64,000 nt of DNA from Flavihumibacter profundi. GTDB lineage: Bacteria > Bacteroidota > Bacteroidia > Chitinophagales > Chitinophagaceae. Shown here piece after piece: positions 31,464 through 51,503 of this stretch (its first letter is position 1; every line of letters starts with the position of its first letter). The stretch is from assembly GCF_020076305.1 (NCBI RefSeq), contig NZ_JAIQXE010000001.1, positions 1,302,001 through 1,366,000 of the forward strand, given 5' to 3'. Under the pieces are notes generated by a model, which saw only the letters and a program-made list of their open reading frames with translations, searched no databases and was not told where the DNA came from. A program made the translations under genes and the position numbers.

Positions 31464-33467
31464 TTATTGTTCAACTGGAATAAATTTTGCAGCCCAGCCT
31501 CCACCCTGGGCAAGATGAATTGTCAACACATCATTCTGTTTCACTGTTGCCACATTTCTTTTATAATCCATGCCGTTCAAATTTGCATTTAAACCATCCT
31601 GAAATATTTCCACCTGGTAGTCTTTCTTATCTAAAAAATCACACTTTATTTTAAGGGTGCGTTCATCCCAGTTGGTCATAGAACCTACAAACCAGGTATC
31701 GTTTTTCTTCCTTGCAATGGTTATGTATTGGCCGATTTTACTTTCAAGAGGATTAGTTGCATCCCACACAGTAGGTATAGATGCTAAAAAATCAAGACAT
31801 TCTGGTTCTTTATTATAGTTAGTTGGAACATCAACCATGAATTGTAAGGGTGAATAATAGATTACGTACATGGCAAGCTGATGGCATCTTGTACCCTGGC
31901 TCATTGGATGGTCTGCGACAGGGAAATAACTTCGTTTGGAAGCGTTAAACATTGCACCCGGGCCATAATCAAATGGTCCAGAAACTCCTCGCATAAATGG
32001 AATAGTCACATCATGAATTGGATTTGCCCTGAAGTCAGATTTGTCGCTTTCCGAACCCAGAACAGCCTCATAGGTAAGCAGGTTTGGGTACATCCTTGAT
32101 AATCCAGTAGGTTTTGTAGCACCATGGTATTCGAGTACCAGGTGATGACGAGCAGCTTCATCCGCAATTCTAATGTAGTCATTAATTCCTTGCTGATCAT
32201 CACGTTCGAAGAAATCAACTTTCAATCCGCTAACCCCCCATTTTTCAAACATTTCCATATTTTCATCAAGATTTTTATAAAGTGTTCTTGCCACACACCA
32301 CAATATAATTTTCTTGTTTTTTTCTTTTGAATACTTTAATAATTTTTGCAGATCAAGATTCGGATGGATTTTAGAGAAATCAAGCGGGTCACACCACCCA
32401 TAATCGACATTCACAAATTCGATATGGTGCTGAACTGCAAAATCAATATAATATTTATAGGTATCAAAATTAGTTCCGGATTTAAAATCCACACCCGAAA
32501 GAATTACCTCCTGAGGTGTTTCGGGCACCCAAATTGCATCCCACCAATCATTGATTATTTTACCGGGTTTGACCCATGAAAAATCTGTTTCCTTCTTTTG
32601 TTCTGACGCAAGAAGGTACACCAATTCATTTTTCAGTAATTCTTTTTCTGTTTCTGAAATCATGATTACCCGCCAGGGGAAACTTCGCACACCATTGGTC
32701 TTAGCAATGTAATCAGCGTTTTCTTTTATGCTTACAGACCAATAGGTATTTTCAAAATCAAATTTTAATGGATAATGTCTGAACGAACCTTGCAGGTTAT
32801 TTCCTGTAGCCGATAAATACATTCCAGGGTAATCAATCAGGTCTGATTCCGTAATTGATAGCATCGGTCCTTTATCTAACTCAATATTGATGGGTAATAT
32901 GGCAACTCTGCCAGAATCGATTTTAGAAATTGGAAGGTGGAGATAGTTTTCTTCGTATAAATAATCTTCCTTTTTCCCCATAATGAAATAGGCCTTAGGG
33001 TCATTACTGAAATTAAAAGAAGCCTCTTCGTTTTTTATTATTATTTCACTGTTGATATTCGTTAAAAACCGGTACGCTACCCCATTATTATAGGCACGAA
33101 AGCTAACCGAATAATTGTTTTTAAATTTTATAACAAGCTCATTATAATTATCCTGAACTTCGGAATTTGTTCCATAAAATGTATTTATCGTCCTATTTAC
33201 CGTATTGGATTTAAGATTTGAAACCTGTGGTTTTGCACCCAAAACTTCTCCATTATTTAATGTCATGGATATGGAAGAAGGGGTTATCAAAACTTTCCCA
33301 TCACGAAGAACTGAATAACGAATGTTTTCGCTAATGGAAATCTTCATTTCAGTTCTTTTATCAGGAGAAGTCAATGAGATCAATTTGTCGGTTGCATTTG
33401 ATGTCTGGAATGTAAAAAGCAGGAGAAAAATACAGCAAATGGTATTACTCAGATTTGAATTTTTCAT
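31464..33467 (-). CDS. Glycoside hydrolase family 97 (SusB-like) enzyme
   Basis: The 667-residue secreted enzyme has a signal peptide ending near residue 25, an N-terminal GH97 beta-sandwich, a catalytic TIM barrel ('IEFVNVDYGWCDP', 'GVSGLKVDFFERDDQ', 'LVLEYHGATKPTGLSRMYPN') and a C-terminal beta domain. GH97 includes inverting alpha-glucosidases and retaining alpha-galactosidases. The aspartate in 'GLKVDFFERDD' is the position expected for a retaining nucleophile, so the retaining branch is possible but not certain. It acts in the periplasm on oligosaccharides. The decayed gene at 30861-31438 follows on the same strand. Confidence 0.92.
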   Translation of the reverse strand: MKNSNLSNTICCIFLLLFTFQTSNATDKLISLTSPDKRTEMKISISENIRYSVLRDGKVLITPSSISMTLNNGEVLGAKPQVSNLKSNTVNRTINTFYGTNSEVQDNYNELVIKFKNNYSVSFRAYNNGVAYRFLTNINSEIIIKNEEASFNFSNDPKAYFIMGKKEDYLYEENYLHLPISKIDSGRVAILPINIELDKGPMLSITESDLIDYPGMYLSATGNNLQGSFRHYPLKFDFENTYWSVSIKENADYIAKTNGVRSFPWRVIMISETEKELLKNELVYLLASEQKKETDFSWVKPGKIINDWWDAIWVPETPQEVILSGVDFKSGTNFDTYKYYIDFAVQHHIEFVNVDYGWCDPLDFSKIHPNLDLQKLLKYSKEKNKKIILWCVARTLYKNLDENMEMFEKWGVSGLKVDFFERDDQQGINDYIRIADEAARHHLVLEYHGATKPTGLSRMYPNLLTYEAVLGSESDKSDFRANPIHDVTIPFMRGVSGPFDYGPGAMFNASKRSYFPVADHPMSQGTRCHQLAMYVIYYSPLQFMVDVPTNYNKEPECLDFLASIPTVWDATNPLESKIGQYITIARKKNDTWFVGSMTNWDERTLKIKCDFLDKKDYQVEIFQDGLNANLNGMDYKRNVATVKQNDVLTIHLAQGGGWAAKFIPVEQ

Positions 33468-33915: not shown

Positions 33916-35079
33916 CTATCTTCCCCCTTGAATTGCTTTATTGATTACTGTTAAAAAGTCGCCCAATTTATCTGGTTCCAGCCATCTTGCCACAACTACG
34001 ATATCGTTTGGCTGGTCTATGACAATATAATTTCCACCAAAGCCATCAGCATAATAAATTTCTGAGGACAGGCCGGCAAATTCCTTGTCCCTATTTGTCC
34101 ACCATAACAATCCATATGATTTATTCGAAGGCGATCCTATACTAACGGCATTTACCCAATTCGATGAAATTACCTGTTGGTTTTTCCATTTTCCGTTTCT
34201 TAAGAATAAGAGTCCAAACCGTGCCTGATCCTGGGCACTAATAAATAAACCGCCGCCAAAATGACCGCCGCCACTTACCGATTGTATCATAATGCCATCG
34301 ATATTTATCCAGGAATTATCATAGCCATACCAGCGCCAGGTAGATGATGCGCCTATAGGATCCATAATTCTTTCTTTTAAAACAACAGGCAGCGGCTTTC
34401 GGAAAACCTGTAAAAGTGAATAAGCCAGCAGGTTCACCCTAACATCATTATACTCGAATTGTGTACCTGGTTCAAGTAGCTTGCGGTTCTTCCAGTCGTC
34501 GATTCCACCTGATTTTGGAGGCCTGTCGGCCCAATCGCATTGTCCAAACAGGCATCCTGACCAGTCTGAACTCTGGTTCAGTAGATGCCTCCAGGTAATC
34601 TTTGAATTGTGTTCACCCTCAAACTGGTCATCCCAAACATAGGATTTCACCTTATCATCTATATTTTGAATCAATTTGCTATCGAAGGCAAGGCCAGCCA
34701 CCGTAGATAGAAAACTTTTTGTTACGCTAAAAGTCATATCCACCCTATTAATATCACCCCATTGCGCAATTATATAGCCATGCCGCAATATAAGTCCGGC
34801 AGGTTTGCCTCTTGGTTTTGTTGGACCAACAATGGTATAATTCGGTTCATTCGCATAGGCCTTCAAGTTAGCAATGCGAAGGTCGTAATCGGTTTTTGTT
34901 TCATGGTTAAGTGCAAATTTAACAGCGCTATCCAGCCAGTGGGCATCAATATTTACTTCTGCAGGCTTTTTTGTTTGCCAGTTTTGATCAGGATAATAAT
35001 CCTGCTGGCAAAAGGCTGAACTGCTATAAAAAAGCACCTGAAATAGCAGTAGTATATTGAGAATTCGATTACATATCAT
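33916..35079 (-). CDS. Serine hydrolase, class C beta-lactamase family
   Basis: The 387-residue protein has a signal peptide ending near residue 24 (AFCQ), the nucleophile motif S118-V-T-K121 in 'TFSVTKSFLSTVAGLA', and a tyrosine motif near Y210 (Y-N-D in place of Y-x-N). 'SGGGHFGGGLFISAQDQARFGLLFL' is typical of the esterase/peptidase branch. It is likely a periplasmic esterase or D-aminopeptidase-like enzyme rather than a true beta-lactamase. A two-base gap separates it from the upstream membrane protein gene. Confidence 0.85.
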   Translation of the reverse strand: MICNRILNILLLFQVLFYSSSAFCQQDYYPDQNWQTKKPAEVNIDAHWLDSAVKFALNHETKTDYDLRIANLKAYANEPNYTIVGPTKPRGKPAGLILRHGYIIAQWGDINRVDMTFSVTKSFLSTVAGLAFDSKLIQNIDDKVKSYVWDDQFEGEHNSKITWRHLLNQSSDWSGCLFGQCDWADRPPKSGGIDDWKNRKLLEPGTQFEYNDVRVNLLAYSLLQVFRKPLPVVLKERIMDPIGASSTWRWYGYDNSWINIDGIMIQSVSGGGHFGGGLFISAQDQARFGLLFLRNGKWKNQQVISSNWVNAVSIGSPSNKSYGLLWWTNRDKEFAGLSSEIYYADGFGGNYIVIDQPNDIVVVARWLEPDKLGDFLTVINKAIQGGR

Positions 35080-37058: not shown

Positions 37059-38126
37059 ATGGATGCGGATATTTCAGGAACAGCCTTTATACTCAGCGGT
37101 GGACTCTTACAGGAATCGGATGCCAAGACCACCCATGGCCTTTTACGAGGTTCAGAAAGATTTAAAATTACCGCAGTAATTGATCCGAAACATGCCGGGC
37201 GGGATGCAGGAGAAGTGCTGGATGGCCGCCACAGGTCGATCCCTGTAATGGCTACCATTGCAGAAGCCCTGGTTAAATTGCCCAAACCCGATTTTTGCAT
37301 TATTGGTGTGGCAACAGTTGGCGGCGTACTTCCTCCTGCCCTTGCTGATACTGTTCAACTTGCCCTTAAGGAGGGCATCTCTATAGTTAACGGGTTGCAT
37401 GACTACCTGAATGAACGGCCGGAAATGGCAGCATTGGCTGCTGCATCCGGAGCCATCCTGATTGATGTGAGGAAACCCAAAAAAAGGGCCAACCTGCATT
37501 TCTGGACGGCAGAAATTTTCCAAGTCCCTTGCCCCATCATTGCCGTCTTAGGAATGGATTGCGCAATGGGCAAAAGAACAACCGCCCGGTTGATCAGGGA
37601 TGCCTGCAGGAAAGCAGGACTCACCACGGAGATGATCTATACCGGCCAAACTGGCTGGATGCAGGGGAACCGCTATGGTTTTATATTTGATTCAACGCTG
37701 AATGATTTTGTAACCGGTGAACTGGAATACGCCATTCTTTCGGCCTACAAAAATGAAAAAACAGACCTTATTTTACTGGAAGGCCAATCTTCCTTAAGGA
37801 ATCCAAGCGGGCCCTGCGGACCAGAATTCATGGTTTCCGGAAATGCCCGCCATGTGGTTTTAATACATGAGCCCAAGCGGGAATACTTTGACTACGACCA
37901 AAACTGGGGAAGGATTCCTACGGTTGAAAGTGAAATAGAATTAATCAATAAATATGGCTCAACTGTAATAGCACTCGCAATAAATACCACAGGTTGCAGC
38001 GAAGAAGAAGCCAGGAAATTCCAGGCGGAATATGCCCGTCGATCAGGCATTCCAGTTATACTTCCTTTGCAGGACGGTGTGGAAAGCTTATTGCCAGTTT
38101 TGCAGGCCCTGATCCAAAAACACTAA
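37059..38126 (+). CDS. DUF1611 protein, D-glutamate N-acetyltransferase (DgcN)-like
   Basis: The 355-residue protein has a Rossmann-like N-terminal part and a P-loop C-terminal part whose phosphate loop is 'GMDCAMGKRTTA' (165-176). 'LILLEGQSSLRNPSGPCGPEF' is a family hallmark. DUF1611 proteins were recently shown, as DgcN, to N-acetylate D-glutamate, followed by racemisation of N-acetyl-D-glutamate by an enolase-superfamily enzyme, DgcA. Here an enolase-superfamily gene follows after 25 bases and a PLP enzyme after that, which supports a D-amino-acid role. The exact substrate is inferred. Cytosolic. Confidence 0.8.
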   Translation: MDADISGTAFILSGGLLQESDAKTTHGLLRGSERFKITAVIDPKHAGRDAGEVLDGRHRSIPVMATIAEALVKLPKPDFCIIGVATVGGVLPPALADTVQLALKEGISIVNGLHDYLNERPEMAALAAASGAILIDVRKPKKRANLHFWTAEIFQVPCPIIAVLGMDCAMGKRTTARLIRDACRKAGLTTEMIYTGQTGWMQGNRYGFIFDSTLNDFVTGELEYAILSAYKNEKTDLILLEGQSSLRNPSGPCGPEFMVSGNARHVVLIHEPKREYFDYDQNWGRIPTVESEIELINKYGSTVIALAINTTGCSEEEARKFQAEYARRSGIPVILPLQDGVESLLPVLQALIQKH

Positions 38127-38151
38127 CCTTACCCTGAGAGCAGCGCAGATT

Positions 38152-39219
38152 ATGAAAATCAGTAAAATAAATGCTTTCCGTATGAATATGGCCCTTACCA
38201 AGCCATATACAATTGCTTTCGAAACAACTTCATCGGTTGAAAATGTTTTCCTGGAAATAACACTCGACAATGGCATTACGGGTATCGGCGCTGCCAGTCC
38301 ATCTGTTCATGTGATCCGGGAATCAGTTGATGATTGCATTTCTAACCTTCAATCTGACGCAATGCAGCAGTTTGTTGGCCGCGATATCAGGGCCTTCAGG
38401 AAAATGATTATTGAAAGCGAGGCCTTATTCCCAAGGTATTCTGCAACAAGAACAGCCATTGATATCGCATTGCACGATGCATTTGGAAAATTACTGGGCA
38501 TACCCATTGTAGATTTTTATGGCCGCCGGCAACATTCCCTGCCAACATCAGTAACTATTGGCATTATGAATGTTGAAGATACCCTGGCGGAAGCAAGTGC
38601 ATTCAAACAAATGGGATTTACAATACTAAAAATAAAGACAGGCCTTAACCTGGATGAAGATATTGAACGCTGCATAAAAGTCAGGGAGCGATTCGGGGAA
38701 TATTTTAAAATAAGGGTGGATGCCAACCAGGGATATACTGCGCAGCAAACCATTGCCTTTGTGGAAGCCACAAAATCAGTTGTGATTGAACTGGTCGAAC
38801 AACCGATGCCTGTTGGAACAGAAGCGGAAATGCAGCGACTGCCTGAAGCGACCAGGGAATATATTGCCTGTGATGAATCCCTGAAAGATGCACGTTCAGC
38901 ATTATCTTTAGCCCTGCCTCCCAAAACCTGCGGGATATTTAATATCAAGCTGATGAAATGCGGAGGCCTATCAGGCGCTTTTGAAATTGCAACGATTGCA
39001 CGGGCTGCAGGAATTGATTTATTCTGGGGATGTTTTGATGAAAGTATTGTAAGCATTACAGCGGCCCTGCATGCAGCATTGGCTTGTGAGAATACCTGCT
39101 ATCTTGATTTGGATGGCAGCCTGGACCTTGCAGAAGACCTTGTAACCGGCGGATTTATTTTAGAAAATGGTGCCATGCGAACAAGCGATGGCGCTGGTTT
39201 TGGATATAAAAAATTATAA
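38152..39219 (+). CDS. Enolase-superfamily dipeptide epimerase / N-acyl amino acid racemase-like (DgcA-like)
   Basis: The 355-residue protein has the capping domain plus a modified TIM barrel of the muconate-lactonising subgroup. The acid-base lysines are K160 and K162 in 'LKIKTG' and K266 in 'NIKLMKCGG'. Metal ligands are D190 (DAN), E216 (VEQP) and D241 (CDES). This residue set is that of L-Ala-D/L-Glu epimerases. Following a DUF1611 gene, it may instead racemise N-acetyl-D-glutamate as DgcA does. Both are alpha-carbon epimerisations of glutamate derivatives, linking it to peptidoglycan-derived D-amino acids. It is five bases ahead of the next gene. Confidence 0.9.
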   Translation: MKISKINAFRMNMALTKPYTIAFETTSSVENVFLEITLDNGITGIGAASPSVHVIRESVDDCISNLQSDAMQQFVGRDIRAFRKMIIESEALFPRYSATRTAIDIALHDAFGKLLGIPIVDFYGRRQHSLPTSVTIGIMNVEDTLAEASAFKQMGFTILKIKTGLNLDEDIERCIKVRERFGEYFKIRVDANQGYTAQQTIAFVEATKSVVIELVEQPMPVGTEAEMQRLPEATREYIACDESLKDARSALSLALPPKTCGIFNIKLMKCGGLSGAFEIATIARAAGIDLFWGCFDESIVSITAALHAALACENTCYLDLDGSLDLAEDLVTGGFILENGAMRTSDGAGFGYKKL

Positions 39220-39224
39220 GCAGT

Positions 39225-40334
39225 ATGAACTGGTATGAAGCAACAAATATTAACGAGGTAGACTCTCCGGCACTGTTGATCTATCCCGATCGCGTAGCAC
39301 AAAATATTGCCACTATGATTAAATGGGTTGGCGGGGATGCCAGCCGATTGGTGCCCCATGTAAAAACCCATAAAACAAGTGAGATCATTCAAATGCAACT
39401 TGCAGCCGGCATTGAACGATTTAAATGCGCCACCATTGCAGAATTGGAAATGTGCCTTACTGCTGGGGCTAACTGGGTGCTGATGACATACCAGCTTACC
39501 GGCCCTAAAATTGACCGGTTTATCAGGCTTGTACAATTATTCCCGAATGCCAGGATTAGTTCCTTAGTTGACAACCTGCAATCAGCAAAGGTGCTGGCTG
39601 CAGCTTTTGAAAAACAGGGTTTAAAAGGAGAAACCTACCTGGATATAAATAATGGGTTCAACCGGACCGGGCTTTTATTGGATGAATATACATTTCCAGT
39701 TTACCAGGAAATATCCGCCATAAAAAGCCTTGAACTAAAAGGCCTTCATATATATGACGGACATATTCGCAACAATGAAGTAGAGCAGAGAACCCAGCAA
39801 AGTAACCAGTTCTTTGAACCGGTATATTCACTCATGGGTCAAATTACAGCAGCAGGATTTCCTGAGCCGGAAATCATAACCGGAGGCTCCCCAACTTTCA
39901 CGCCTGCGGCAATGCGAAAAAATTTTTATTGCAGTCCGGGTACTACCCTGCTATGGGATTGGGGATATTCGAAGACTGTGCCGGAATTACCGGTACAATG
40001 GGCAGCGGTGCTGTTAACCAGGATCATTTCGAAGCCGAAACCAGGCTATATTACTACTGACCTCGGGCACAAATCCGTAGGGTCAGAAAATCCAATAGAC
40101 AAGCGGGTTTTATTCCTGAACCTTTCCGATTACACCATAAAAATGCAAAGTGAAGAACACCTGGTGGCAGAAGTGAAGGATTGGGATAAACTGGAAGTAG
40201 GTGATGTCCTGTACGGAATACCTTACCATGTATGCCCGACAGTAGCTTTATACGATACCGCCAATATAATACGGGATAACAAGTGGGTGGAAGATTGGTC
40301 GGTTATTGCAAGGAAAAGGAAGATCACCATTTAA
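39225..40334 (+). CDS. D-threonine aldolase/D-serine dehydratase-family PLP enzyme
   Basis: The 369-residue fold-type III enzyme has an alanine-racemase-like N-terminal barrel and a D-serine-dehydratase-like C-terminal domain. The PLP lysine is K47 in 'VPHVKTHKT'; the metal-binding pair is H335-x-C337 in 'YHVCPTVAL'. Members cleave D-threonine-type beta-hydroxy amino acids or dehydrate D-serine or D-3-hydroxyaspartate, using PLP and a divalent metal. It is the third gene of the D-amino-acid trio, and its place next to DgcN/DgcA-like genes is unusual. Cytosolic. Confidence 0.9.
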   Translation: MNWYEATNINEVDSPALLIYPDRVAQNIATMIKWVGGDASRLVPHVKTHKTSEIIQMQLAAGIERFKCATIAELEMCLTAGANWVLMTYQLTGPKIDRFIRLVQLFPNARISSLVDNLQSAKVLAAAFEKQGLKGETYLDINNGFNRTGLLLDEYTFPVYQEISAIKSLELKGLHIYDGHIRNNEVEQRTQQSNQFFEPVYSLMGQITAAGFPEPEIITGGSPTFTPAAMRKNFYCSPGTTLLWDWGYSKTVPELPVQWAAVLLTRIISKPKPGYITTDLGHKSVGSENPIDKRVLFLNLSDYTIKMQSEEHLVAEVKDWDKLEVGDVLYGIPYHVCPTVALYDTANIIRDNKWVEDWSVIARKRKITI

Positions 40335-45743: not shown

Positions 45744-46892
45744 ATGTGTCTATATAAGCGATTCTATTTCCCTGGTGCAGGATATTCCCTGCTGGTTTTT
45801 TGGGCAATTTTATCCCATGGTTGTGGTTCAGGCCAGGCCCCCAAACCGGAATCATCGAAAGAGTCAATTGTTTTGCCGGTATTAAAAATCACCCAGGATT
45901 CAGCAACCACATACAAGGATTATACTGCTGCACTTGAAGGCAAAATAAATATTGACATCAGGGCACAGGTGGATGGATATCTTAATGGTATTCTTATTGA
46001 TGAAGGGGCTTATGTGAAAGCCGGCCAGTCCTTATTCAGGATTGACGATAAAGTGTACCGAGAAGAATTGAATACGGCAATAGCCAACCTGCATGTTGCC
46101 GAGGCCCACATGAACGCGGCGCAAATTGAAATTGATAAACTGACCCCCCTTGTGGAAAACAAGGTTATTTCAGATATCCAGCTAAAATCTGCCCAGGCAG
46201 CCTACAATGCAGCCCTGGCATCTGTCGAACAGGGAAAGGCGGCAGTTTCATCAGCCCGGATCAATCTCGGTTTTACATTGATCAAAGCACCGGTAAATGG
46301 CTTTATTGGCAGGATCCCAAAGCGCCTGGGTGGGTTGGTTAGCAGAAATGACCCGCAGGGCCTGACCACCTTATCAGACATAGATTCAATCTATGCTTAT
46401 TTCACCCTCAGTGAATCAGGATTTTTAAGTCTTAACCAGCAAAGAGAGGGCCTTTCAACCCAGGATATGATAAACAAGCTAAGGCCGGTTACCCTGATCC
46501 TGGCAAATGGTACGGCTTACTCCCACAAAGGAAAAATCAATCTTGTTAATGGCCAGTTTGATAAGACAACGGGCAGCATTACCTTACGCGCCACTTTTCC
46601 TAATCCTGAAAAACTGCTTCGGTCGGGCAATACCGGTAAGGTCAGGATGGAAGAGCATATGGATTCTGTTCTTTTGGTTCCCATATCTGCAACGATGGAC
46701 CAGCAGGACAAAATATTTGTGTATCTCTTAGGAGACAGCAACCTGGTTAAACGGCAGTCCATCTCTGTAATGGACAAAGCAGGCACAAGTTATATTGTAA
46801 AGGAAGGGATAAAACCGGGTGATAAAATTGTGACTGAAGGAATGGAAAGACTAACTGAAGGAACACGCATAACTCCAAAACCTGGCCAATAA
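45744..46892 (+). CDS. RND efflux periplasmic adaptor (membrane fusion lipoprotein)
   Basis: The 382-residue adaptor has a lipobox SHGC (C27), a barrel-sandwich lipoyl domain ('IRAQVDGYLNGILIDEGAYVKAGQSL' in pieces near 75-100), an alpha-helical hairpin ('AHMNAAQIEIDKLTPLVENKVIS'), the second half of the lipoyl domain ('FTLIKAPVNGFIGRIPKR') and a beta-barrel/MP domain ending near 370. It links the inner-membrane RND pump to the outer-membrane channel. First gene of a three-gene operon with gaps of five and one bases. Confidence 0.94.
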   Translation: MCLYKRFYFPGAGYSLLVFWAILSHGCGSGQAPKPESSKESIVLPVLKITQDSATTYKDYTAALEGKINIDIRAQVDGYLNGILIDEGAYVKAGQSLFRIDDKVYREELNTAIANLHVAEAHMNAAQIEIDKLTPLVENKVISDIQLKSAQAAYNAALASVEQGKAAVSSARINLGFTLIKAPVNGFIGRIPKRLGGLVSRNDPQGLTTLSDIDSIYAYFTLSESGFLSLNQQREGLSTQDMINKLRPVTLILANGTAYSHKGKINLVNGQFDKTTGSITLRATFPNPEKLLRSGNTGKVRMEEHMDSVLLVPISATMDQQDKIFVYLLGDSNLVKRQSISVMDKAGTSYIVKEGIKPGDKIVTEGMERLTEGTRITPKPGQ

Positions 46893-46897
46893 TCCTT

Positions 46898-49800
46898 ATG
46901 CTGAAAAAAATCATACAAAGACCTGTACTGGCCACAGTCATATCCATCATACTAGTATTGCTGGGGTTAATCGGACTTTTCAATTTACCACTTACACAGT
47001 TCCCTGAAATCGCTCCGCCACAGGTATCAGTAAATGCTTTTTATCCCGGGGGTAATGCAGAAGTGGTATCCCGATCCGTTATTGTACCCCTGGAGGAAGC
47101 CATCAACGGGGTGGAGAATATGACATACATGACCTCTTCCGCCAACAATGACGGATCAGCTTCCATATCGGTGTCCTTTAAACTAGGTACAAATCCTGAC
47201 CAGGCTGCGGTGAATGTCCAGAACAGGGTGGCTCAGGTGACGGGAATTTTACCACCAGAGGTTGTGCAGGCGGGTATTTCCACATCAAAGCAGCTGAACA
47301 GCATGATCATGGTGATGGAAGTTTATAGCGAAAACAACAAGTTATATAATGAAACCTTCCTGCAAAACTATATCAGGATAAATATTTTACCAGAAATCAA
47401 GAGAATACCCGGGGTAGGCAATGCATTTATCTTTGGCGGCAAGGATTATGCTATCAGGGTCTGGCTGAATCCACAGCAGCTGGCAGCATATAACCTTTCC
47501 CCACAGGAAGTCCTTGCTGCTATACAGGACCAGAGTCTTGAAGCGGCCCCTGGAAAATTCGGGGAAAATTCCGCAGAAGCTATGGAATTTGCCATAAAAT
47601 ATAAGGGCAAACTAAATAAAATTGAAGATTTCCAAAGCCTGGTAATTCGATCCAACCCTGATGGTTCTGCACTTTACCTCAGGGACATTGCGCGTATTGA
47701 ATTCGGCGCCGCTTCCTATTCAAATGAAAATAAAGCTGACGGACGGGATGGTGTAGCCATGGGCATTTTCCAGATGGCGGGTTCAAATGCCAATGAGATC
47801 CAGATCGCCATTTCTGCAATGATGGAAAAGGCCGCGCGATCATTCCCCAAAGGGGTTAAATATAATGTGCTATACAGCACGAAAACACAGCTTGATGAAT
47901 CGATCAGCCAGGTGAAGACAACATTGATTGAGGCGTTCCTGCTGGTGTTCATTGTGGTTATCATTTTCCTGCAGGATTTACGATCAACGCTAATACCGGC
48001 CATCGCAGTTCCTGTATCACTGATCGGCACCTTCTTTTTCATGAAGCTGATGGGTTATTCCATTAATATGCTGACCTTATTCGCATTATTACTTGCGATA
48101 GGCATTGTAGTGGATGATGCCATTGTAGTTGTGGAAGCCGTCCATAGTAAAATGGAAAGGAAACATTTGCCTGCGCTGCCTGCCACTGTATCTACCATGG
48201 GCGAAATAACCAATGCTATTATTTCCATTACATTGGTGATGGTTGCAGTATTTTTTCCTGCCGGTTTCCTGGAAGGTTCCACTGGTGTTTTTTACCGGCA
48301 ATTCACCTTTACACTTGCCGTGGCTATCCTGATCTCAGCAGTGAATGCATTAACATTGAGTCCGGCCCTTTGCGCTTTATTGCTAAAGGATAAGCATACC
48401 GAAGAAGGAAGCGAAACAACTGTTGTGCATAAAGGACCCGTGCAGCGTTTCTTTGATGCCTTCAACAACGGATTTAAAGCACTGACCCAAAAATACATCA
48501 GGGGGCTGCATTTCCTTGTCCTGCACAAATGGATCACTTTACTGGGTCTGGCCATTATTACCATTTGCTCGGTGTACCTGATGAGTTCCACACCAAAGGC
48601 ATTTGTACCCAATGAGGACAATAATTTTGTGGTGTTCGGACTCTCACTTCCACCCGGGGCATCATTAAACAGGACGACAAAAACACTGGCAAATGCAACA
48701 GAGCTGCTTAAAGATCAGACAGCCATCAATTCAACGGTAACCATCTCGGGTTTAAATCCATTTGGATTCAATAACAGTTCTTCATTTGCCACAGGATTCA
48801 TTAACCTGAAACCCATTAAAGAAAGGGGAGATATTAAACAGATCGATGACCTGGTCACTCATTTTAATGAGAAATTATCTCCTATCAAGGAAGGGTCTGT
48901 TTTCGCTTTTACCTTTCCAACATTACCCGGATTTGGAAACTTCAATGGACTTGAATTTGTTTTGCAGGACAGGACTGGCGGGAGTTTTAAGAAGTTCGGT
49001 GAAGTTGCGGATCAATTCGTGTCTGACCTGGCCAAAGAAAAACAGATCGGAAGTGCATTAACAACATTTAAAGCAGATTATCCGCAATTGGAAATTGAAG
49101 TAGACAACCTGAAAGCAAAACAAATGGGTGTAAATGTACGTGACCTGATGATGACAGTACAGGCCTATTATGGAAGTATGCAGGCAACGGATTTCAATCT
49201 TTTTGGAAAGTATTACAGGGTTTTTGTTCAGGCTGATATTCCTTACCGGGCTGAACCGGTTTCCCTCGATGGTATATTTATAAAGAATACAAGGGGTGAA
49301 ATGGTTCCAGTAAATTCCATTGTGACACTAAAACATGTTTATGGTCCCGAAACCATTAACCGCTATAACATGTATAATTCCATTTCAGTGAATGCAAGTC
49401 CCAAAGAAGGAGTTAGCACAGGCGATGCAATAAAAGCTGTTGAAGAAGTTGCGGCTAAAAAACTTCCTGTGGGATACAGCTATGAATGGACAGGCCTCAG
49501 CAAAGAAGAAAATGAATCAGGCAACCAGGTGCTGGCCATTTTTGTGATGTCAATAGTATTTGTTTATTTCCTGCTGGCTGCTTTGTACGAAAGTTATATT
49601 CTTCCATTGGCTGTTATCCTGTCTATCCCAACCGGGATTATTGGTGTCTTTTTAGCAATACGGGCTGCCGGCCTGGATAATAATATATATGTCCAGATCG
49701 GCCTGATCATGCTCATTGGGTTACTTTCCAAGAATGCGATATTGATCGTTGAGTTTGCATTGCAACGCAGGAAAGGAGGTCATTCCCTCATAGAAGCGGC

Positions 49801-50110
49801 GCTGGAAGGCGCATCACTCCGATTGCGTCCCATCCTTATGACATCCTTTGCTTTCATAGCCGGTTTAATACCACTAATGAATGTAAAAGGAAGTTCTGCA
49901 AATGGCAACCACTCCGTAAGTATAGGCACAGCGGGAGGCATGATGTCGGGAGTTCTTTTGGGAATTTTCATTGTTCCTGTCCTGTTTATACTATTCCAAA
50001 ACCTGCAGGAGAAAATATCCCCGCCCAGGAAACAACATGAAGAAGCCGATAGCAACCATGCACACCAGCATGTTGAATTAGCCGGAGAACATGACGCGAA
50101 AAACCATTAA
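46898..50110 (+). CDS. RND efflux inner-membrane pump (AcrB/HAE1 type)
   Basis: The 1070-residue permease has 12 membrane segments and two large periplasmic loops. 'RPVLATVISIILVLLGLIG' opens TM1. TM4 carries the proton-relay aspartate pair in 'GIVVDDAIVVVEAVH', and TM10 the matching lysine in 'GLLSKNAILIVEFA'. Motifs at 'NNFVVFGLSLPPGASL' and 'FAFIAGLIPL' are typical of HAE1 pumps. It exports hydrophobic or amphiphilic compounds by proton antiport. A histidine- and acid-rich tail follows TM12. No TetR or two-component regulator is encoded next to it. Confidence 0.96.
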   Translation: MLKKIIQRPVLATVISIILVLLGLIGLFNLPLTQFPEIAPPQVSVNAFYPGGNAEVVSRSVIVPLEEAINGVENMTYMTSSANNDGSASISVSFKLGTNPDQAAVNVQNRVAQVTGILPPEVVQAGISTSKQLNSMIMVMEVYSENNKLYNETFLQNYIRINILPEIKRIPGVGNAFIFGGKDYAIRVWLNPQQLAAYNLSPQEVLAAIQDQSLEAAPGKFGENSAEAMEFAIKYKGKLNKIEDFQSLVIRSNPDGSALYLRDIARIEFGAASYSNENKADGRDGVAMGIFQMAGSNANEIQIAISAMMEKAARSFPKGVKYNVLYSTKTQLDESISQVKTTLIEAFLLVFIVVIIFLQDLRSTLIPAIAVPVSLIGTFFFMKLMGYSINMLTLFALLLAIGIVVDDAIVVVEAVHSKMERKHLPALPATVSTMGEITNAIISITLVMVAVFFPAGFLEGSTGVFYRQFTFTLAVAILISAVNALTLSPALCALLLKDKHTEEGSETTVVHKGPVQRFFDAFNNGFKALTQKYIRGLHFLVLHKWITLLGLAIITICSVYLMSSTPKAFVPNEDNNFVVFGLSLPPGASLNRTTKTLANATELLKDQTAINSTVTISGLNPFGFNNSSSFATGFINLKPIKERGDIKQIDDLVTHFNEKLSPIKEGSVFAFTFPTLPGFGNFNGLEFVLQDRTGGSFKKFGEVADQFVSDLAKEKQIGSALTTFKADYPQLEIEVDNLKAKQMGVNVRDLMMTVQAYYGSMQATDFNLFGKYYRVFVQADIPYRAEPVSLDGIFIKNTRGEMVPVNSIVTLKHVYGPETINRYNMYNSISVNASPKEGVSTGDAIKAVEEVAAKKLPVGYSYEWTGLSKEENESGNQVLAIFVMSIVFVYFLLAALYESYILPLAVILSIPTGIIGVFLAIRAAGLDNNIYVQIGLIMLIGLLSKNAILIVEFALQRRKGGHSLIEAALEGASLRLRPILMTSFAFIAGLIPLMNVKGSSANGNHSVSIGTAGGMMSGVLLGIFIVPVLFILFQNLQEKISPPRKQHEEADSNHAHQHVELAGEHDAKNH

Positions 50111-50111
50111 G

Positions 50112-51503
50112 ATGAACAATTATGTATATATAGCCATGTTGTTGGTTGTTACCAGTGGTTGTACGGTTGGAAAAAAATACACCGAACCTGCCCTGGACCT
50201 GCCTGTCCAATACAGGGATGCCAGGACATCTGCTGATACAGCAAGCCTGGGTGAAACACCTTTACATCAATTTTTTAATGACCCTTTGCTTCAACAATTA
50301 ATAGACAGCACTATAAAAAAGAATTACGACCTGCAACTGGCCATTAAGAATATTGAGATAGCAGACCAACTGATGAAACAGTCAAAGCTCGGATACTGGC
50401 CGGATGTAGATGCACAAATAACAGCAAGCACATCCAGGTTTTCAGACAATAGCCTGAACAGTAATTTAGGTGTGACACATATTGAAAATTATAGTGCAGG
50501 AGTTGGCCTTTCATGGGAAGCCGATATATGGGGCAAGATACGGATGAGGAAACAAGCGGCCTTGTCAACTTACCTGGAAACAGAGGAAGTCAAAAAAGCT
50601 GTGCAAACCAGGTTAGTAGCTGAAGTGGCACAGGGCTACTACAACCTGCTTTCTCTTGACGCACAGCGGGACGTGTCAGAAAAAAACCTGGCCTTAAGGG
50701 ATAGCACACTGCGCATTATAAAGTTACAATATACTTCCGGACAGGTAAATGCGCTTGCTGTGCAGCAGGCTGATGCCCAGAAGCAGGCAGCTGAATTACT
50801 TGTACCAGCCCTTCAAAAAGAAATCACTATCCAGGAAAACGCACTTCGCGTTTTATCAGGGGAGCTTCCATCCGCCATTCAGCTGAGTGCAAAACTCAAT
50901 GATTTTAATGTCCCGGATGAATTCTCCTCAGGGGTACCTGTTGAAATGGTCAAGTACCGGCCTGATGTCAGAGCCTACGAATTAGCATTACAGGCTGCGA
51001 ATTCAAGGGTAGGTATCGCTCAGGCAAACATGTATCCTTCCCTTGTTATAACAGCCAGCGGCGGTTTAAATTCATTAATATTCAGCAGTTGGTTCAGTAT
51101 ACCAGCATCATTATTCGGCCTGTTGAACGGATCTCTGACACAGCCAGTATTTCATCGAAAGGAATTAAAGACGGCACATGAAATAGCGAAAATTGAAAGG
51201 GAAAAGGCCGTCATACAGTTCCGGCAATCTGTCTTGTTTGCTGTTGAAGAAATTTCAAATGCATTAATCAGTGTCGAAAAATTAAAAACCCAAAGCGAGG
51301 TAGCTACAGCCCGTGCTGAAACTTTGCAAAATGTGACACGTAATGCAATGCTTTTATTCAAAAGCGGGATGGCCAATTACCTTGATGTGATCACCGCACA
51401 GGCTACGGCATTACAGAGCCAGTTGGATGTATTAGACACAAAACGGCAGCTATTAAATGCAAACGTAGAACTTTACCGTTCATTGGGAGGTGGTTGGAAA
51501 TAG
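50112..51503 (+). CDS. Outer-membrane efflux channel lipoprotein (OprM/NodT type)
   Basis: From ATG 50112 the 463-residue protein has a lipobox TSGC and the OprM-type sequence: 'YRDARTSADTASLGETPLHQFF' in the equatorial part, 'GVGLSWEADIWGKIRMRKQ' in the first alpha-hairpin, and 'KYRPDVRAYELALQAANSRVGIAQ' in the second. It completes the tripartite pump. An ATG at 50091 would overlap the permease gene by 20 bases; the chosen start follows its stop by one base. Confidence 0.93.
   Translation: MNNYVYIAMLLVVTSGCTVGKKYTEPALDLPVQYRDARTSADTASLGETPLHQFFNDPLLQQLIDSTIKKNYDLQLAIKNIEIADQLMKQSKLGYWPDVDAQITASTSRFSDNSLNSNLGVTHIENYSAGVGLSWEADIWGKIRMRKQAALSTYLETEEVKKAVQTRLVAEVAQGYYNLLSLDAQRDVSEKNLALRDSTLRIIKLQYTSGQVNALAVQQADAQKQAAELLVPALQKEITIQENALRVLSGELPSAIQLSAKLNDFNVPDEFSSGVPVEMVKYRPDVRAYELALQAANSRVGIAQANMYPSLVITASGGLNSLIFSSWFSIPASLFGLLNGSLTQPVFHRKELKTAHEIAKIEREKAVIQFRQSVLFAVEEISNALISVEKLKTQSEVATARAETLQNVTRNAMLLFKSGMANYLDVITAQATALQSQLDVLDTKRQLLNANVELYRSLGGGWK

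Follow-up and report, generated by a model that had tools for sequence, protein, structure and literature searches.

In the DgcN-DgcA route for D-glutamate, the amino acid is N-acetylated and the N-acetyl-D-glutamate is then racemized by an enzyme of the enolase superfamily. Other members of this superfamily epimerize dipeptides. One solved example is PDB 3rit, which we take to come from Methylococcus capsulatus and to act on L-Arg-D-Lys. A further family, dependent on pyridoxal 5'-phosphate (PLP) and a metal ion, includes the D-threonine aldolases and the D-serine dehydratases. According to PMC4401734, D-threonine aldolase works with His347 and Asp349 and with His193 as its base; in D-serine dehydratase and in 3LLX the metal ligands are His and Cys, and His193 is absent. 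The locus reported here, in a 64,000-nucleotide stretch (the window) of the genome of Flavihumibacter profundi (family Chitinophagaceae), brings together a DUF1611 gene, a gene for an enolase-superfamily epimerase, and a gene for a PLP- and metal-dependent enzyme of the D-serine dehydratase type.

The three families, and both of the modules to which the genes belong, are known elsewhere. What is new is the combination, found whole in one genome and to two-thirds in one more. We put the chances at about even that the three genes form an operon for the clearing or salvage of D-amino acids, arisen by the lineage-restricted merger of two normally separate modules.

Results

Families and Arrangement of the Three Genes

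The first and second genes (Table 1) are separated by 25 bases and the second and third by 5 bases. The genes flanking the trio on both sides lie on the opposite strand, and the three genes may be co-transcribed. Promoter and terminator scans around the trio gave matches at chance level only. The GC content, considered as a sign of foreign origin, lent no support, the three genes ranking 4, 37, and 28 among 60.

Table 1. Features of the window discussed in the text
Feature	Coordinates	Strand	Length	Pfam domains
DUF1611 protein, P-loop and Rossmann-like domains	37059..38126	+	355 aa	PF07755, PF17396
Enolase-superfamily epimerase, clade of dipeptide epimerase PDB 3rit	38152..39219	+	355 aa	PF13378/PF02746
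PLP/metal D-serine-dehydratase-type enzyme, metal motif H335-x-C337	39225..40334	+	369 aa	PF14031/PF01168
GH97 glycoside hydrolase	31464-33467			
Divergent beta-lactamase-family gene	33916-35079			
RND-type efflux operon (HlyD, AcrB-family, OEP)	45744-51503			

The first protein matched the Pfam models DUF1611 (183.5 bits, curated cut-off 25) and DUF1611_N (91.1 bits, cut-off 22.6), the second MR_MLE_C (141.4 bits) and MR_MLE_N (50 bits), and the third D-ser_dehydrat (61.1 bits) and Ala_racemase_N (58.1 bits). Because all of these matches exceed the curated cut-offs, the family-level naming of the trio in the initial annotation was right. The open reading frame coordinates likewise bear out its account of three genes on one strand with 5 bases before the third, and the expected active site residues, which it had called intact, were found in each protein. 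Its theme of D-amino acid metabolism is backed by the protein families and by the gene neighborhoods. Two of its names were too specific. "DgcN-like" and "DgcA-like" hold at the superfamily level but not as identities, both NCBIfam cut-offs being missed widely and the DgcA-type sequences forming a separate clade. For the third gene, described as of D-threonine-aldolase/D-serine-dehydratase type, the metal- and PLP-dependent fold stands but the aldolase type does not, as the ligands are His and Cys and the aldolase base is missing.

The Metal Site of the Third Enzyme

Residues K47, H335, and C337 of the third enzyme were invariant in 12 of 12 homologues. The second position of the metal motif is Cys in the window protein and in chicken D-serine dehydratase (3anu), and Asp in the four aldolases compared, which have His-x-Asp. 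At the column of the aldolase base His193 the window enzyme has Asn183. Cys at the Asp349 column and Asn183 at the His193 column speak against an enzyme of the D-threonine aldolase type. For D-threo-3-hydroxyaspartate dehydratase, the titles of PDB entries list the mutants H351A and C353A, which affect a residue pair of the same kind. By its His-x-Cys metal site and the missing aldolase base, the third enzyme is in sequence of the dehydratase type.

A profile built from the 12 homologues ranked the aldolases first, with 144.8 bits for 4v15, 143.8 for 6qkb, 124.0 for 7dib, and 116.3 for 7yqa; the same profile gave 97.7 bits with 3anu. Against the NCBIfam model for BhcC 3-hydroxy-D-aspartate aldolase (NF045642) the enzyme scored 107.2 bits, failing the cut-off of 690.

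Relationships of the Epimerase

The best solved relative of the epimerase was 3rit, with 332.1 bits over residues 1-351; the next best scored 181.7 bits. The epimerase reached 137 bits with the NCBIfam DgcA model NF042940 (equivalog cut-off 400), 203.5 bits with NF041118 for L-Ala-D/L-Glu epimerase (cut-off 500), which was its best NCBIfam model, and 79.8 bits with PRK15129 for L-Ala-D/L-Glu epimerase (cut-off 343).

All 11 aligned rows carry K160/K162, D190, E216, D241, K266, and D319-x-D321, and the residue set of a dipeptide epimerase (two catalytic lysines, three metal ligands, and the DxD motif) is complete. The residues other than the two lysines presumably have their usual roles. The roles of the two lysines are taken from PMC5808125. 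The DxD motif was considered as a marker of dipeptide as against N-acyl substrates and rejected: it is present in the DgcA-type rows too and so cannot decide the substrate class.

In a tree of 64 epimerases, from which L073 was left out as a long branch, the window protein grouped with 3rit (support 97/88) inside a 56-row clade (100/99). Four DgcA-type rows formed a separate clade (100/100); these are L067 together with L068-L070, which were assigned by 76-82% identity to L067. A second enolase-superfamily epimerase of the same genome (C1:1857492, 31% identical) fell outside the 56-row clade. A search of plasmid records, made with the epimerase only, returned 979 matching records, every one below 60% identity.

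At two positions the window epimerase differs from 3rit. Residue 24, which in the Bacillus subtilis enzyme is an arginine that we assume binds glutamate, is E in the window; across the 64 rows it is E in 17, K in 16, and R in 7. In the active-site loop GC-x-DES, position 295 holds F solely in the window protein and in that of a second genome of the genus (G557); 3rit has M there, and the 31 other rows of the 33-row clade to which these two proteins belong all have N. The shared F295 reflects one evolutionary event at most.

Relationships of the DUF1611 Protein

The DUF1611 protein scored 124.2 bits with the NCBIfam DgcN model NF041892, failing the equivalog cut-off of 480. Its matches to solved structures were 143.7 bits for PDB 2g0t, 109.1 for 2obn, and 93.3 for 7xrj. 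As a positive control, the pair at L067, from the same phylum, passed both cut-offs with 560.9 bits for DgcN and 509.0 bits for DgcA. The DUF1611 proteins of L057 (141.3 bits) and L081 (149.0 bits) also missed the DgcN cut-off.

The residues G165-x-D167-xxx-G171-K172, TGQ 195-197, and EGQ 241-243, which we take to serve in the active site with the roles usually given to them, were conserved in 63 of 63 rows. These rows take in four of DgcN type, L067 by its score and L068-L070 by 79-86% identity to L067, the one row of the four scored against the DgcN and DgcA models. Because the family residues are invariant in the DgcN-type rows as well, the chemistry of the window protein may be of the same sort as that of DgcN, with a different substrate. 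In a quick tree the DgcN-type rows lay beyond a long branch from the window protein, which itself fell outside the clade of the other eight rows from its genus; this last placement (support 88, open forks) is weak, and we do not build on it.

Conservation of the Gene Order

A search with PF07755 in 296 genomes of the phylum found 63 with a match at E <= 0.001, 58 of them above the cut-off. We compared 58 DUF1611 loci together with flanks of about 8 kb, as far as the contigs reached, leaving out ten weak matches (E > 1e-4), and eight more loci from the same genus. Neighbors were called at a 50-bit threshold; for the third gene, the positive controls were the window and L106-L117.

The DUF1611-epimerase pair is widespread in the phylum. 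The DUF1611 match to the window protein was present at 56/58 phylum and 8/8 genus loci, and the epimerase at 42/58 and 7/8. In all 49 loci with both genes they share a strand, and in 40 of the 49 the epimerase match begins -7 to 81 bases past the end of the DUF1611 match. At this threshold the third gene was present at none of the 58 phylum loci and none of the eight genus loci. Within a sample of 394 genomes of the family, searched at E <= 0.001, 56 had DUF1611 and 161 the third gene; among the places listed, the two were side by side in the window only.

The converse scan, for the third gene in 84,980 species genomes (a collection that may leave out the window's own genome or very near ones), was analyzed for the best 80 of at least 597 stretches. 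Neither DUF1611 nor the epimerase was found at any of these 80 loci. The nearest four (L118-L121, 59% identical) lie on short contigs, L119 having 361 bases before the gene, so that absence of the pair is weakly tested there. The three-gene order, which the initial annotation proposed to look for in other Bacteroidota, thus occurred in none of the other genomes examined. Nor, for the most part, does the third gene keep company with the pair, a finding that the same annotation had named in advance as telling against it; but the epimerase and the third gene do stand together at one locus of the same genus (L106).

Usual Neighborhoods of the Two Modules

At 7 of the 8 genus loci, DUF1611 lies near a fusion of about 840 aa (cluster C4) that joins a serine hydrolase to a D-aminoacylase-like amidohydrolase; the L103 copy has PF00144 and PF07969, and at L099 the fusion is on the opposite strand. 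At L048 an M55 D-aminopeptidase is directly beside DUF1611. A full-length copy of the fusion was not found in the window genome (G000), the best match being partial (159.8 bits). The divergent beta-lactamase-family gene of the window (Table 1) was considered as a remnant of it, but is not among the fusion matches in this genome. Directly beside DUF1611 at 14 of the 58 phylum loci (L038, L077, L079-L086, L088-L090, and L092), which represent a different branch of the pair, is a protein of 340-379 aa, belonging at L082 to the PLP lyase family PF00291; the epimerase has E at position 24 in 13 of these 14.

The best 80 third-gene loci have other companions. A GntP transporter was found at 39, a Rid/YjgF protein at 36, and an M19 dipeptidase at 34, with at least one of the three at 49 and all three at 23. 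Rid is directly upstream of the dehydratase at 29 loci and M19 directly downstream at 32, one or the other at 35. The typical order is GntP-Rid-dehydratase-M19, as at L129, L151, and L192 among the Bacteroidota loci L118-L197. The reference partner proteins matched their Pfam models above the cut-offs (in brackets), GntP with 496.5 bits (22.5), M19 with 165.6 (26), and Rid with 47.0 for YjgF (35) and 30.7 for Ribonuc_L-PSP (27.3). Open reading frame calling missed the dehydratase gene itself at 3 of the 80 loci. At three third-gene loci a distant match (22-23% identical) to the serine-hydrolase/amidohydrolase fusion adjoins the dehydratase. The position of Rid beside the lyase fits a dehydratase that releases an enamine.

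Origin of the Arrangement

In the window, Rid and M19 do not flank the dehydratase. The two genes are adjacent elsewhere in the window genome, at C1:858725-860260 (L210:9714-11264), with the intervening dehydratase absent, and the same is seen in G557 (L211:12438-14033). G590 and G617, the two other members of the genus examined in this respect, retain the complete cassette.

G557 also carries an epimerase (74% identical) next to a dehydratase (66%), with no DUF1611 gene, at L106:8031-10333; gene order and 5-base gap are as in the window. Its own DUF1611 gene (L102) is far from this dyad, has the D-aminoacylase-like fusion, and lacks an epimerase neighbor. The pattern looks as if a foreign epimerase supplied a resident DUF1611 that had none.

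In a tree of 90 dehydratases, the window and G557 proteins grouped with three Saprospiraceae sequences and one other Bacteroidetes sequence (100/99), apart from the G590 and G617 copies, with 100/99 branches between. Because of this placement, and because Rid-M19 is left without a dehydratase in both genomes, a foreign dehydratase, which either arrived beside the epimerase or was moved there afterwards, probably took the place of the resident one. The quick DUF1611 tree gives a hint that DUF1611 may have arrived together with the epimerase and dehydratase.

Other Genes of the Window

Downstream of the trio is a resistance-nodulation-division (RND)-type efflux operon. The last two genes of this operon have relatives (60 and 51% identical) in G406 (L112), at a distance of about 2 kb from the dehydratase cassette there, which may be shared synteny. 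The glycoside hydrolase family 97 (GH97) protein comes near the model for retaining alpha-galactosidase, with 707 bits against a cut-off of 800.

Discussion

If the trio clears or salvages D-amino acids, the DUF1611 protein would attach an acyl or aminoacyl group to a D-amino acid at its amino group, or would supply such a conjugate. The epimerase would invert the alpha carbon of this N-acyl-amino acid or dipeptide by a two-lysine, Mg-assisted mechanism, after which ordinary L-specific hydrolases could complete the breakdown. The logic of this first module would in general be that of DgcN-DgcA with another substrate. The third enzyme, a predicted zinc- and PLP-dependent lyase, would remove water from a beta-hydroxy D-amino acid, with D-serine or D-threonine the first candidates. 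Its product would be an enamine that goes on to a 2-oxo acid and ammonia, and the Rid-family protein encoded elsewhere beside the M19 dipeptidase could hydrolyze the enamine or imine.

Several observations weigh against such an operon. Since no other examined genome has the three-gene order, the genes may have come together recently and by chance. The trio itself contains no transporter, Rid, or peptidase gene, and 31 of the 80 third-gene loci, 17 of the 80 being shorter than 9 kb, lack GntP, Rid, and M19 alike. The Rid label holds at the family level only, the NCBIfam Rid model giving 21.4 bits against a cut-off of 106.25. The overall profile score places the third enzyme nearer the aldolases than chicken D-serine dehydratase. 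An AlphaFold2 model of the enzyme (pLDDT, the predicted local distance difference test, 86.6) compared about as well with an aldolase (4v15, Z 36.6) as with D-serine dehydratase (3anv, Z 34.6); as the fold is common to both, this comparison does not separate them.

The nearest alternative concerns the first module and is possible, if on balance doubtful. Here the epimerase would act on free L-Xaa-D-Xaa dipeptides from the cell wall or other peptides, with DUF1611 supplying or modifying the dipeptide and the dehydratase consuming the released D-serine or D-threonine. It is favored by the best NCBIfam model being one for L-Ala-D/L-Glu epimerase, by the dipeptide epimerase name of 3rit, and by the M19 dipeptidase directly downstream of the dehydratase in 32/80 loci. 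However, the second epimerase of the genome, outside the clade of the pair, could handle murein dipeptides, and the 3rit substrate is a presumed one.

We think it unlikely that the genes are fortuitous neighbors, with a foreign dehydratase landed behind the pair and no common pathway. The absence of the third gene from all 66 other pair-type DUF1611 loci (58 + 8) and of the pair from all 80 dehydratase loci would suit such a landing, as would the grouping of the window dehydratase with Saprospiraceae-type sequences and not with the two genus copies. Against it, G557 has the epimerase and dehydratase adjacent in the same order with the same 5-base gap, far from its DUF1611, and all of the modules involved point to D-amino acids.

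Quite improbable in our estimate is a dedicated and undescribed DUF1611-epimerase-dehydratase route whose substrate would be a beta-hydroxy D-amino acid or a conjugate of one. The epimerase, with E24 and F295, would then have changed its specificity so as to pass substrate to the dehydratase or to receive it from there; among the 64 rows F295 is shared with the G557 copy alone, and E24 recurs in other rows. Least probable is that the pair is the true DgcN-DgcA route joined to a D-threonine aldolase: the gene order and superfamilies match the L067 pair, and the DxD of DgcA-type rows leaves N-acyl substrates open to the window epimerase, but we reject membership on the scores (124/480 and 137/400 bits, where L067 has 561 and 509), the separate DgcA clade, the grouping with 3rit, and the long branch to the DgcN-type DUF1611 rows in the quick tree.

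In this genome the two modules are physically linked. Given that DUF1611-epimerase pairs are common in Bacteroidota and that those scored apart from L067 (the pairs of the window and L057, and the DUF1611 protein of L081) fall far below the DgcN and DgcA cut-offs, assigning the D-glutamate route to genomes from superfamily membership alone may mislabel them. The GntP-Rid-dehydratase-M19 cassette offers a testable role for the HxC branch of the D-threonine-aldolase/D-serine-dehydratase family. A literature search of partial coverage, with few subscription journals, found no description of the DUF1611-epimerase pair with a dehydratase, nor of this cassette.

Compared with DgcN-DgcA (NF041892, NF042940), the window has the same succession of a DUF1611 gene and an enolase-superfamily gene, with the P-loop, TGQ, and EGQ conserved in the first product and K-x-K, the metal ligands, and DxD in the second. 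It differs in lying far below both cut-offs, in the clade of the epimerase, and in the extra third gene. With the dipeptide epimerase 3rit/3ro6 the window epimerase shares the 332-bit match, the clade, the catalytic lysines, and DxD. Unlike 3rit and 1jpm, which have R at position 24, it has E24, and F295 replaces the M of 3rit; unlike 3rit and the L-Ala-D/L-Glu epimerases, it is paired with DUF1611 and a dehydratase. The third enzyme resembles D-serine dehydratase (3anu) and D-threo-3-hydroxyaspartate dehydratase (3wqc) in its fold, His-x-Cys motif, PLP lysine, and lack of His193, although identity is about 20% and its profile score is nearer the aldolases. With D-threonine aldolase (4v15, 7dib) and BhcC (6qkb) it shares the fold and the overall profile score, whereas in those enzymes the metal motif is His-x-Asp and the 193 column holds a His.

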